Of a stretch of 46,328 bases of DNA, positions 3,833 through 35,723 are shown piece after piece. The DNA lies in IMG/VR virus record IMGVR_UViG_3300032116_000363, positions 1 through 46,328 of that record. One strand, written 5' to 3'. A model generated the notes under the pieces. That model was not told the DNA's origin. It ran no database searches and worked only from the letters and a program-made list of their open reading frames with translations. How positions within the stretch are numbered: the first letter of the stretch is position 1; every line of letters begins with the position of its first letter. The position numbers were made by a program, and so were the translations under genes. The DNA comes from a virus.

Positions 3833-4487
3833 TACAGCTACCTACGAGGTGGGGATTTTGACGAAAGCAGGAGTTCCAGAGCGCTATTTGCCGCATTCAT
3901 TTGAAAATTTTGTTGTCAATGACAAGACAACAAAGGCTTTTGAGGTTGCGACGGAGTGGGCTGCGCTTAAAGATCCAAAAGATCGCGGATTTTCCCTTAT
4001 TGGAGCGCCTGGCGTCGGCAAAACACATCTTGCTGTGGCTGCACTGCGTGAAGTTGCAAGACTTTGGGGCGCTCAGCGACTTGAGGAGCGTGGTGTTGAG
4101 CTCTATCGCGACCCAAAAACGATGGTTGAGCAGAATATGCGCTTCATTAACGTGCCAATCTTTATGGATAAGCTCCGAGAAAGCATCAGGTTGAGCGAAT
4201 CGAGGGCGCAAGACCTCTGGGAGTTTTCCCTTGAGCGAGCATCAGTGGTCGTCCTTGACGATTTCGGCAAGGAGAAGGCAACTGATTGGGTGACTGAGCG
4301 TCTCTATGTCCTGATTGAGAGCAGGTACCAGCACATGAAGTCCACCATTGTGACCTCTAACCTTACCCTTGATCAACTGGACGACCTTGGTTACGGGGCA
4401 TCGGTGAGTAGATTGCAAGAAACTGGTCGTGTTGTCAGAATAGATGCGAAGGATCAGCGACCGGAGATCGGTGCTCGGAACCGATGA
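3792..4487 (+). CDS. DnaC-like helicase-loader ATPase
   Basis: 231 residues. AAA+ signatures are complete: Walker A GAPGVGKT (71-78), Walker B VVVLDDFG (152-159), sensor I TSN (188-190) and the SRLQE arginine-finger box near 206. Length and order match phage and bacterial DnaC/DnaI proteins that load the replicative helicase. No helicase gene lies in the window, so it probably recruits a host helicase or one encoded elsewhere. Good ribosome-binding site AGGGAG 7 nt before ATG. Overlaps the methyltransferase start (ATGA). Confidence 0.85.
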   Translation: MSEVSAVMNTLNPDTATYEVGILTKAGVPERYLPHSFENFVVNDKTTKAFEVATEWAALKDPKDRGFSLIGAPGVGKTHLAVAALREVARLWGAQRLEERGVELYRDPKTMVEQNMRFINVPIFMDKLRESIRLSESRAQDLWEFSLERASVVVLDDFGKEKATDWVTERLYVLIESRYQHMKSTIVTSNLTLDQLDDLGYGASVSRLQETGRVVRIDAKDQRPEIGARNR

Positions 4488-9432: not shown

Positions 9433-9656
9433 TGTACGAAGAGCCATCCCGCATCTGCACTCGATGTAAAGAAGACTGGCCGGACGACGAAGAGTTCTAT
9501 CGCCCAGGGCACAAGCAGTGCCGCGCCTGCGAATATGAGGTCAAACTAGTCGCCCCGTCACGATCTCCTGAGTCGCGGAAAAAGGAGGCGGAGCGGCGCT
9601 CCAAGCGTCGGCGAGATGCTGCCGCTGCTGCACGGAGGGGTAGCTCAGCGGTTTAG
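9432..9656 (+). CDS. Small zinc-finger protein overlapping a tRNA gene
   Basis: 74 residues. CTRC (9-12) and CRAC (30-33) form a treble-clef-like pair, followed by a very basic helix rich in Arg, Lys and Ala (about residues 47-70). This could bind nucleic acid. The last 23 bases of the gene are the first 23 bases of tRNA-Ile, an unusual overlap. Confidence 0.7.
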   Translation: MYEEPSRICTRCKEDWPDDEEFYRPGHKQCRACEYEVKLVAPSRSPESRKKEAERRSKRRRDAAAAARRGSSAV

Positions 9657-9710
9657 AGCACTCGGCTTATATCCGAGCGGTCCTTGGTTCAAATCCAAGC
9701 CCCTCTACCA
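9634..9710 (+). tRNA. tRNA-Ile (anticodon UAU)
   Basis: A 77-base cloverleaf. Acceptor GGAGGGG pairs with CCCCTCT (one G-U at the first pair), D-arm GCTC/GAGC, anticodon stem CTCGG/CCGAG with loop CTTATAT, T-arm CTTGG/CCAAG with loop TTCAAAT, discriminator A and encoded CCA. The anticodon TAT reads the AUA isoleucine codon directly, without needing lysidine modification. A phage with moderate GC would gain from this in a host where AUA is rare. Confidence 0.93.
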
Positions 9711-10536: not shown

Positions 10537-10580
10537 GCATTACGCATAACCCATAACCCATAACCTATAACCCCTAACCG
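10537..10580. repeat. ATAACCC heptamer run 1
   Basis: Begins TGCATTACGCATAACC and continues as degenerate ATAACCC/CTAACC units. Located between the leader side of one gene cassette and the 3' hairpin (10582-10605) of the next. Confidence 0.7.
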
Positions 10581-10911: not shown

Positions 10912-10970
10912 ATGCCATAACCTATAACTCATAATCTATAACTTATAACTTATAACCCATAATCCGTAAG
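10912..10970. repeat. ATAACY heptamer run 2
   Basis: Tandem units such as CATAACC, TATAACT, CATAATC, TATAACT and TATAACCC, period about 7, ending at the 3' hairpin of 11012-11203. Confidence 0.7.
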
Positions 10971-11380: not shown

Positions 11381-11432
11381 ATGCCATAAGTCATAACCCG
11401 TAAGTCATAAGCTATAACCCATAAGTCATAAC
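11381..11432. repeat. ATAAGT/ATAACC heptamer run 3
   Basis: Alternating CATAAGT, CATAACC, CGTAAGT, CATAAGC, TATAACC, CATAAGT and CATAACG. Same 7-base period as the other runs. Confidence 0.7.
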
Positions 11433-11614
11433 GAAGTGGCGGCCACGGCCTCGAGTCTGGACCTAGTGCCCGGTATCGGCCTCGTAGATGGGCCTAGGAG
11501 CCACCAGGAGCCGCGAAACGTGCCCGGGTGCTGTCTTGGTACTCCTAGCGAGCTGTGAGCCACTTTTGGGCATCTTTGGACGTATGCCGGGTGAATAGTT
11601 TGGGGCAATAAGAA
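11433..11614. other. About 180 bases without a supported gene
   Basis: GC-rich with CCGGGTG/CCCGGGTG and GAGCCAC/CCACCAGGAGCC repeats. The only long frame (11426-11764, - strand) has unnatural composition and overlaps the better gene 11662-11865. No promoter pointing into it is clear. Possibly an RNA or a site; nothing firm. Confidence 0.4.
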
Positions 11615-12804: not shown

Positions 12805-12843
12805 GCCATAACCTATAACTCGATAACCCCTAACCGGCCTAAC
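12804..12843. repeat. ATAACC heptamer run 5
   Basis: CATAACC, TATAACT, CGATAACCC, CTAACC and CCTAAC units between operator cluster 1 and the 3' hairpin of the next gene. Confidence 0.65.
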
Positions 12844-16130: not shown

Positions 16131-16169
16131 GGGGTTAGGGATAACCCCTAACCCCATAACCCCTAACTA
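16131..16169. repeat. CTAACCCC run 7 forming a hairpin
   Basis: GGGGTTAGGG, ATAA, CCCCTAACCCC, then CATAACCCC and CTAAC. Here an inverted copy of the heptamer pairs with the direct copies, so the repeat doubles as the 3' hairpin of 16167-16355. Confidence 0.65.
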
Positions 16170-17528: not shown

Positions 17529-17659
17529 GCACTTTGTCAAAGATTCATCATGAATATTTTGTATGCAGAGGCGGCCGCACCGGTATTCGCTCGATGGATA
17601 ACCCAGGCGGGCATAACCGGGAACCATAACGACACGAGCTATAACCCACGCCATAACAG

Positions 17660-26462: not shown

Positions 26463-26810
26463 ATGAGCGATTCCAAGAAGCTCGGGATGTGCAACTACTG
26501 CCAAGAACTTGGTCCTGTGTTTGAGCAGGAAGACAAGAACGGCACACCAACATTTCTCATCTGCCATAACTGCATCAGCGATATCAACGTTGGCATTGCG
26601 ATCAAAGAGCAGGTTGAGAAGAAGCGCGAGAAGTGGGATCGCAAGCGACCAGGCGATACCGGGTATAAGACCCTGAAGCCAAAGGAGATCTGGGAGCTTT
26701 ATCACTACGAATCCTATGAGGACTACCAGAAGGACCTTGAGCGCCAGCGTCGCGTTGCTGAGGATGAGCGCCAGCGCATCGAGGGGCTACAACAGGACGG
26801 GTTCTTCTAA
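26463..26810 (+). CDS. Zinc-ribbon protein with coiled-coil tail
   Basis: 115 residues from ATG 26463 with GGGAGG 6 nt upstream. CNYC (10-13) and CHNC (34-37) form a zinc ribbon. Residues 45-110 are strongly charged helices (KEQVEKKREKWDRKR; KDLERQRRVAEDERQRIEGL). Function unknown; looks like an adaptor. The two structured RNAs follow directly. Confidence 0.7.
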   Translation: MSDSKKLGMCNYCQELGPVFEQEDKNGTPTFLICHNCISDINVGIAIKEQVEKKREKWDRKRPGDTGYKTLKPKEIWELYHYESYEDYQKDLERQRRVAEDERQRIEGLQQDGFF

Positions 26811-26836
26811 GTACCTGCTTCTGGTATCATGACCCC

Positions 26837-26968
26837 AGCACACCCGGTCTGAAGGTTCGGGGCTCCCTCCTTTTGGGCCAACCTCGGTTGGTTGTTTACG
26901 TGAGCCCAACTAACACGGGCCTAAGCGTTAGCGCTGCCCCAACGAATCGGGGGGTTGACCGGGGTGCT
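26837..26968 (+). ncRNA. Tandem structured RNA, copy 1 (132 nt)
   Basis: A TATCAT box ends 6 nt before the first base of stem P1. P1: AGCAC-ac-CCGGTC pairs with GACCGG-g-GTGCT. Inside are P2 AGGTTCG/CGGGCCT, P3 GGGCTC/GAGCCC with a CCAAC/GTTGG hairpin, P4 AGCG-TTAG-CGCT and P5 CCCC/GGGG. The -35 region is weak (TTCTTC). Shares CCCAGCACAC, GGCCTAAGC, GCGCTGCCC and GTTGACC with copy 2. No credible reading frame; no known RNA family recognised. Confidence 0.65.
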
Positions 26969-26984
26969 ATTACTCATCTAGAAT
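26955..26984 (+). promoter_or_regulatory. Promoter of RNA copy 2
   Basis: TTGACC (26955-26960, inside the 3' end of copy 1), 18-bp spacer, TAGAAT (26979-26984). Confidence 0.6.
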
Positions 26985-26990
26985 AACCCC

Positions 26991-27099
26991 AGCACACTGG
27001 GTCTGAGGTCTTCCGCCCTGGTTAGGTACCCCCTTTACAGGGCAAGCGAATCTGCGGCCTAAGCTTCGCGCTGCCCGTGCACGGGTTGACCCAGGTGCT
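26991..27099 (+). ncRNA. Tandem structured RNA, copy 2 (109 nt)
   Basis: +1 at the first base of P1, 6 nt after TAGAAT. P1: AGCAC-ac-TGGGTC with GACCCA-g-GTGCT. P2: AGG+CCGC with GCGG+CCT. P3: GCCCTG/CAGGGC. P4: AGC-TTCGC-GCT. P5: CCCG-TGCA-CGGG. Every stem of copy 1 has a counterpart with different but still paired bases. The end again contains GTTGACC, a -35-like box for a decayed third unit (TTATCT at 27111). Confidence 0.65.
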
Positions 27100-27169
27100 A
27101 CTTCTCTTCCTTATCTGCGAAAAGCGCGGCGCATAACACTAGGAAGATGATGCAGATGGTGGTGAGCAT
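27098..27169 (-). CDS. Micro membrane peptide 3
   Basis: 23 codons from ATG 27169, overlapping the previous stop (TAATG). Hydrophobic helix TICIIFLVLCAALFA followed by DKEEK. Third of three consecutive micro membrane genes; its stop touches the end of RNA copy 2 on the other strand. Confidence 0.5.
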   Translation of the reverse strand: MLTTICIIFLVLCAALFADKEEK

Positions 27170-27228: not shown

Positions 27229-27300
27229 CTATCGCTCAGTCTCGGCGAGATACCAAATAACAGCGAAAATAACTGCTAGGAACAAAACCCCGTAAATCAC
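27229..27300 (-). CDS. Micro membrane peptide 1
   Basis: 23 codons from GTG 27300, overlapping the stop of 27297-27473 (GTGA). Hydrophobic core YGVLFLAVIFAVIWYL and a charged AETER end. Together with the two following peptides it forms a translationally coupled membrane-peptide cluster. Confidence 0.5.
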   Translation of the reverse strand: MIYGVLFLAVIFAVIWYLAETER

Positions 27301-27473
27301 TCACACCCCTTGTGTCGGTGGAAGAAGCTACTCGATCGCTTCGCTCCCTCAAAGCCTAGCACCAAGACGGTGGTCACCTTGTCTGACATCATCCGGTCAC
27401 CACACTTGGCGCAGACGCGCCTGGTGAGGACTGGCTTTGCTTTCTCTTTCTTGACTGCCGTTTTCCCTGCCAT
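27297..27473 (-). CDS. Small basic zinc-finger-like protein
   Basis: 58 residues from ATG 27473 with GGAGG 7 nt upstream. A Lys-rich start (KTAVKKEKAKP), CAKCGDRM, then FFHRHKGC at the end: a possible CxxC-HxxxC zinc site. Heads the operon with the three micro membrane peptides. No clear promoter upstream. Confidence 0.6.
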   Translation of the reverse strand: MAGKTAVKKEKAKPVLTRRVCAKCGDRMMSDKVTTVLVLGFEGAKRSSSFFHRHKGCE

Positions 27474-27978: not shown

Positions 27979-28006
27979 TTGACGCACGCTTTCAAAGGCG
28001 TATAAT
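27979..28006 (+). promoter_or_regulatory. Promoter of 28049-28195
   Basis: TTGACG (27979-27984), 16-bp spacer, TATAAT (28001-28006). Followed by a 5' hairpin GCTCG-TCAATC-CGAGC and GGAGGAC before the ATG. Confidence 0.8.
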
Positions 28007-28048
28007 GCACACCTGCTCGTCAATCCGAGCACAATGTTTGGAGGACAC

Positions 28049-34676: not shown

Positions 34677-34842
34677 TTCCCGTGGGCGACCACTCAACGG
34701 CTGGCACTGCACGCAATGCGAATCAAAGATCTCCGATGAAGTGATGGATGGTTATCCGGGAACAATTGACCCAAGATTTAAGAAGGCCATGTGCCACAAA
34801 TGTAAGAAAGTGAAGGTTATTAAGAAATGGGATCAAAAGTAA
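34648..34842 (+). CDS. Small zinc-ribbon protein
   Basis: 64 residues from ATG 34648, GGAGCAGGA upstream. CTQC (23-26) and CHKC (51-54) flank a loop; the end is Lys-rich (KKVKVIKKWDQK). Overlaps the protease gene start by 16 bp. Confidence 0.65.
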   Translation: MADAKNLVVDSRGRPLNGWHCTQCESKISDEVMDGYPGTIDPRFKKAMCHKCKKVKVIKKWDQK

Positions 34843-35723
34843 GGGTTGTCATTGCTGCATTAGCTAGTGTGATTATCTCTATATCATCAGTAAATACTGT
34901 TATCGCTAAAAACAAGCCCGCTCAAAAACGAGATTTCAGAGCGGTAAAAACATGGAAACAAGGATATAAAGAAGGATGGGCGTTAGATAGGATAAATCAG
35001 GTGCACTGGCGACTTGATAAAGTACCTCTTGCAAATGAAAATGCTGGGGAAGGAATCACTATTTATGTTATTGATACCGGTGTTGGCGAGGAAGACTGCA
35101 ACGGTCACGGCACGGTTGTAGCAAGTATTGCTGCGGGGTCCGAATATGGGGTGGCCCCAGCGGCTGATATTGTAAGCGTCAAAGCCCTCAACTGCGAGGG
35201 GTCTGGCACAGCAGCAGATGTTATTGCCGCAGTTGAAATCGTTGCAGAAATGGCAGACCCAGAAACATCAGTGGTCAACATGAGCTTGGGGGGGCCGGCA
35301 AAAGCAAGTGTTGATGCTGTAGTTGCGTCGCTTGCGGAAAGAATGCCAGTTGTAGTGGCGGCTGGGAATGAGAGCACCGATGCCTGCGAGAAAACTCCCG
35401 CACGGGTTCCAGCGGCGATTACGGTGGCTGGGTACGATAACACAAATCTTCGGTCAATATTCTCTAATTACGGCAGTTGTGTTGATATTTGGGCGCCAGG
35501 AACAGCGGTAGACGGGGTTGATAAAAACGGTGACAGGGTACAGTGGAGCGGGACAAGTATGACAACGGCAATAATCAGCGGTGCAGTTGCATTCATCGCA
35601 AGCCGAGACGGAATTACAACAAGACAAGCTGCTGATAAAATGATGCAAACAGCAGCTCGTCCTTATTTGATTGATGCACGTCTTAATGGGAAATCAGCCT
35701 ACTCCTTGCTGATTGGGAATTAG
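34827..35723 (+). CDS. Secreted subtilisin-like serine protease (proteinase K type)
   Basis: 298 residues. Signal peptide (about 1-27), a short basic segment instead of a full propeptide, then the catalytic domain from WALDRINQ (51). Triad Asp83 (VIDTG), His94 (NGHGT) and Ser244 (GTSM), with oxyanion Asn171 (AAGN). Only 11 residues separate Asp83 from His94, far fewer than in proteinase K, so a surface segment is deleted. Markedly more AT-rich than its neighbours. Target could be host surface proteins or competing phages. Confidence 0.88.
   Translation: MGSKVRVVIAALASVIISISSVNTVIAKNKPAQKRDFRAVKTWKQGYKEGWALDRINQVHWRLDKVPLANENAGEGITIYVIDTGVGEEDCNGHGTVVASIAAGSEYGVAPAADIVSVKALNCEGSGTAADVIAAVEIVAEMADPETSVVNMSLGGPAKASVDAVVASLAERMPVVVAAGNESTDACEKTPARVPAAITVAGYDNTNLRSIFSNYGSCVDIWAPGTAVDGVDKNGDRVQWSGTSMTTAIISGAVAFIASRDGITTRQAADKMMQTAARPYLIDARLNGKSAYSLLIGN

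Follow-up and report, generated by a model that had tools for sequence, protein, structure and literature searches.

Tandem units in an uncultured phage look like a narrowly distributed family of structured RNAs with a conserved core and a replaceable arm

Two diverged units (26837-26968 and 26991-27099, both on the + strand) stand in tandem between two convergent genes for CxxC proteins in an uncultured phage; they are very likely real structured RNA and, with slightly less assurance, a new family. They look like a narrowly distributed family of phage RNAs with a regulatory or decoy role. As judged from the aligned sequences, the core (a 12-bp closing helix with a bulged A, the junction UGA, the P5 hairpin and, in most copies, the P4 hairpin) evolves with its pairing kept, and the P2-P3 arm has been replaced whole between near-identical phages. 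The phage is the IMG/VR virus record IMGVR_UViG_3300032116_000363, the full stretch of which (46,328 bases, hereafter the window) was analysed; it encodes terminase, tail-fibre and other phage genes. The original prediction had proposed two units with common sequence blocks, and the units were found where it placed them, with the blocks in common. The features of the locus are as follows.

26463..26810, + strand: upstream gene for a small CxxC...CxxC protein, a neighbour kept in all carriers
26822..26830, + strand: extended -10 of copy 1 (TGG TATCAT), with no recognisable -35 (sequence; alignment of five phages)
26837..26968, + strand: RNA copy 1, 132 nt (sequence, shuffled-fold test, alignment, folds, covariance model)
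26837..26849, + strand: 5' side of copy 1 P1, comprising 5 bp, the bulged A 26842 and 7 bp; its partner is 26957-26968 (covariation at two pairs)
26853..26922, + strand: P2-P3 arm of copy 1, an exchangeable module (arm replaced between L002 and L006; folds)
26924..26935, + strand: P4 hairpin of copy 1, AGCG UUAG CGCU (folds, pair counts)
26936..26955, + strand: P5 hairpin of copy 1, GCCCC...GGGGU (last pair C-G, G-C, U-A or U-G across copies)
26955..26960, + strand: TTGACC, overlapping P1b on its 3' side; -35 of the promoter-like site of copy 2 (consensus match)
26957..26968, + strand: 3' side of copy 1 P1, GACCGGG GTGCT (folds, pair counts)
26979..26984, + strand: TAGAAT, the -10 of copy 2, 18 nt past TTGACC (consensus; L002 and L006 have TACAAT in this position)
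26991..27099, + strand: RNA copy 2, 109 nt, with P1b CTGGGTC/GACCCAG (sequence, shuffled-fold test, folds)
27015-27020 with 27038-27043, + strand: P3 of copy 2 (folds)
27073-27086, + strand: P5 of copy 2 (folds)
27297..27473, - strand: downstream gene in convergent orientation, encoding a CxxC protein of 58 aa

Pattern and protein-guided scans of IMG/VR brought the number of phages with the element to five: L002 and L006 have two copies each and L066 and L072 one each, which adds six copies to those of the window; the copies of L004 are identical to those of the window. Every copy found follows the same CxxC gene, the product of which (26463-26810) has no Pfam or PHROG match. A single slot between convergent genes holds two units in the window, L002 and L006, one in L066 and L072, and none in L182 and L183, where the flanking genes are present. 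These scans revealed no carrier beyond the five phages, nor did filtering of the retrieved loci by structure. The covariance-model search suggested by the original prediction, performed with the core over 20 phage records, recovered the known copies and no others, and so did not widen the family. A pattern scan of bacterial genomes found no carriers; nor did the covariance model, run over 396 genomes from a single phylum and 6 further ones. Both genome searches prove little, as there is no genome to serve as a positive control. Among cultured phages, the RNA region has no DNA match and the upstream CxxC gene no protein match, and the best matches of the window terminase are 23-26% identical.

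The core runs in the order P1a (AGCAC/GUGCU), bulged A, P1b (seven pairs), UGA, P2-P3 arm, P4, P5, one U and P1. Six distinct cores remained after the removal of duplicates; all of them have the closing helix of 5+7 bp and the short P5 hairpin, and five of the six have P4. For the counting of pairs the arm was trimmed from the alignment beforehand, which leaves P3 out. In this core alignment 97.4% of the paired cells hold a pair, as compared to 92.7% in shuffles, and the covariation score is 0.187 as compared to 0.080, values that none of the 500 shuffles reached in either case. When the partner was slid by 1-3 columns, every register dropped to 30-49% paired. Changes on both sides were observed at three pairs, namely a P1 pair that is C-G or U-A, a P1 pair that is C-G, G-C, U-A or U-G, and the last P5 pair, which shows the same four types; the covariation thus comes from three two-sided pairs in six distinct cores, which belong to five phages. 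Because kinship alone can beat shuffles without any structure, weight is given to the pairs with four types and to the slid-register controls, and P1a and P4, being invariant across copies, are uninformative on covariation. G-U pairs occur on the + strand in P1, P2 and P5 and the matching A-C pairs are absent, which therefore favours an RNA made from the + strand. The original prediction had made its case depend on homologues with compensatory changes; such homologues were found, and the RNA reading survived.

Folding of single sequences supports the core more evenly than the arm. P1 and P5 were recovered in all copies, and P4 in all except window copy 2; for P2, the first copies of the window and of L002 and the unit of L066 show a clear preference, L006 copy 1 a partial one and the second copies none. 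Both window copies have more stable folds than their dinucleotide shuffles, with z scores of -2.2 (copy 1) and -2.9 (copy 2). The identical five-stem plan first claimed for both copies went too far, since window copy 2 disfavours both P2 (pairing probability 0.12) and P4 (0.11), and would pay about 1.3 kcal/mol for the common plan. Likewise, of the compensations announced in P1, P2, P3 and P5, those of P1 and P5 stand, whereas the P2 changes are one-sided only and the P3 stems are non-homologous, with different sequences. The inner loop of the P2-P3 arm of copy 1 contains CCUCCUUUUG, predicted to be unpaired.

The replacement of the arm is best seen by comparing L002 and L006. Upstream, these phages are 98.6% identical over about 870 bases; the linker and copy 2 show 100% identity, and the downstream side about 96-98%. 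Their copy 1 arms, in contrast, align over 39 bases with an identity of 61.5%, and the alignment has 41 gap columns. Both arms fold, each differently, and that of L006 is of the type found in L066 and window copy 1. The slot also coincides with a mosaic break: on its left side L006 is 95% identical to L072, which is itself identical to L066 there; on its right side the values are 67% for L006 and L066, and 86% for L066 and the window. Other elements were noticed in the same place. L188 (about 4160-4210) and L190 (about 430-480) have another nearly invariant hairpin-forming stretch, GCCACCAACGCGCCACGCTGTTGGGCGTTTCGGGGGGAAGTGGC; the distant relatives L079-L083 and L191 have a tRNA-Ile(TAT) after the same CxxC gene, i.e., in the slot of the RNA units; and in L079-L082 the tRNA is followed, on its 3' side, by direct repeats of the GTTATTGTCCGGGCTGGCGGGATCGAAC type, which recall the sequence of a tRNA T-arm. 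The slot thus accommodates structured elements of different kinds: RNA units, the other hairpin or a tRNA.

A promoter-like -10 is located 6-7 nt 5' of the RNA in all five phages, and in the window both TATCAT (26825-26830) and TAGAAT (26979-26984) end 6 nt before P1, as predicted. The copy 1 site of the window reads TGGTATCAT, that of L002, L006, L066 and L072 TGGTACAAT; its -10 is kept even though the window and the other four phages have unrelated coding ends immediately before it. The copy 2 site (TTGACC, 18 nt, TAGAAT) scores 10/12; both sites are matches to a consensus. The built-in promoters originally attributed to the units therefore stand as promoter-like sites at both copies, that of copy 1 being an extended -10 for which no -35 could be recognised. 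The related claim that each unit carries the promoter of the next one holds for unit 1, where TTGACC is the -35 of copy 2, and does not hold as a general property, as TTGACC is kept with no following -10 in last or only units (L066, L072 and second copies). The RNA therefore explains the conservation of TTGACC better, promoter use being an added role.

The constant core, the exchangeable arm and the varying copy number suggest an RNA that acts in trans, its specificity being set by the arm, and we tentatively propose such a scaffold plus exchangeable arm, with less than even confidence. The predicted start of each RNA is the first base of its closing helix (giving about 132 and 109 nt), and transcription would be from sigma-70-type promoters. 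The core may serve as a platform for stability and protein binding, whereas the arm would carry specificity for a target, be it an RNA or a protein, of the host or of a phage. As that target changes, arms may be exchanged and units acquired, duplicated or dropped, and changing selection, e.g., by host defence or host variation, could maintain this turnover. To the overall reading (two paralogous noncoding RNAs with a kept core and whole-arm replacement, and with transcription, platform and target roles that are presumed) we give a little under an even chance. We are more hesitant about the fullest version, that of a new class in which a constant junction scaffold has its arms swapped, duplicated or dropped to track a host target, and in which the closing helix supplies the -35 of the next unit. 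A counter-defence or host-takeover RNA would best fit the turnover of arms and units; that the units are counter-defence RNAs in particular seems unlikely. Arm replacement could also be neutral recombination. If the arm decides the target, L002 and L006 constitute a natural swap experiment, and the RNA could lead to an RNA or protein of the host that phages have to manipulate time and again. To our knowledge, few phage RNAs combine a kept scaffold with the exchange of a whole domain.

The statement that the RNA class was not recognised agrees with the searches against Rfam. The covariance models of its 4227 families were run, at the gathering score and at lax E-values, against the window as well as three loci with five of the homologous copies; nothing was found at the gathering score or at E up to 5 that matches a family, the single SECIS_3 hit (E 2.6) being at chance level. 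ARAGORN calls no tRNA in the window other than a tRNA-Ile with the anticodon TAT (9634-9710), and the units are accordingly no tRNAs with a cloverleaf, anticodon and CCA end. Some RNAs of the GOLLD and ROOL type are carried by phages. Like the units, GOLLD, ROOL and other large ornate RNAs (PMC12286853) are structured and have no known role, but they are far larger than the units, which match none of the Rfam families. RNA anti-CRISPRs (Racrs; PMC10651486) are also small noncoding RNA genes of phages, and counter-defence is a possible role of the units too; however, Racrs mimic CRISPR repeats, whereas the units are junction RNAs of 101-142 nt. Tandem riboswitches (PMC9481103) similarly have two similar structured domains in a row, but the units have a promoter-like site before each of them and no same-strand gene directly downstream. 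The leader position of a tandem riboswitch was not found here, since a - gene separates the units from the next + gene (near 28034), which has a promoter-like site of its own.

The nearest resemblance, as far as stem motif and overall layout tell, is to the Y RNAs. YrlA RNAs have a similar length, 5' and 3' ends that pair in a long stem and, sometimes, two tandem genes (24 nt apart in Xanthomonas). The units differ from them by a promoter-like site per unit, by the lack of an Rfam match and of a tRNA-like D/T domain, and by the absence of an Rsr gene from the phage records, which are possibly fragments. The YrlA covariance model (RF02553) gave no match, and folds compared with the Xanthomonas YrlA showed no tRNA-like domain opposite the stem. 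We do not file the units as Y RNA, because they lack the YrlA match and the tRNA-like domain and because the phages, to the extent that possibly fragmentary records can show it, lack the Rsr gene. Presumably, the closing stem matches vertebrate Y RNAs in sequence. Its GGUC-U-GA/UU-GACC motif (a seven-pair helix, a single pyrimidine and GA opposite UU) resembles the vertebrate Ro60 site as described (PMC4726728), which would suit an RNA binding a host Ro60/Rsr ring. Neither YrlA nor any other Rfam family matches, no TROVE (Rsr) gene is present in the 16 phage records, possibly fragments, and the examined Xanthomonas YrlA copies have the tRNA-like domain and lack the stem motif, so that we regard such a Y-RNA-like function as highly improbable. 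By eye, UCU-GA/GA might also be taken for a kink-turn.

Three other explanations were weighed against the trans-acting RNA with an exchangeable arm. The C-rich unpaired stretch CCUCCUUU of the arm, which resembles the 3' end of 16S rRNA, might let a base-pairing regulatory sRNA block the Shine-Dalgarno sequences of messages: CCUCCU or CCUCCC occurs in the arm of at least one copy in all five phages and is predicted to be unpaired in window copy 1. We nevertheless consider this doubtful, as pairing with the 108 candidate start regions of the window reaches -12.7 kcal/mol as compared to -12.4 for shuffled loops, neither window arm pairs with the ribosome-binding regions of its own phage better than composition-matched shuffles, and the L002 copy 1 arm lacks the C-rich stretch. 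The position between a + gene and a - gene, in a slot that other structured elements occupy in related phages, could also point to a cis-acting DNA or RNA element (a terminator, an insulator or the leader of the downstream + operon). This, too, appears rather improbable, because no U-run follows P1, the next + gene starts near 28034, beyond the opposing gene and the promoter-like site 27979-28006, the G-U pairs speak against a DNA palindrome, and L182 and L183 manage without the unit; inspection of the window sequence revealed no recognisable terminator after either unit. Finally, a copy number of 0-2, a replaced arm and mosaic flanks are what a decayed or mobile functionless repeat, duplicated and lost by recombination, might display. 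We find this very unlikely, given that the changed positions of P1 and P5 still pair and that the -10 is retained next to an unrelated coding end.

Elsewhere in the window, short repeats of ATAACC/CTAACC on the + strand, from which the right part of the window is largely free, crowd the intergenic spacers between 10500 and 27300, as in the following examples.

10546-10574, 10917-10957, 11393-11433, 12808-12828, 16141-16166 and 17598-17658, + strand: ATAACC/CTAACC repeats

In addition, a gene for a subtilase-like protease (34827-35723) adjoins the terminase gene.
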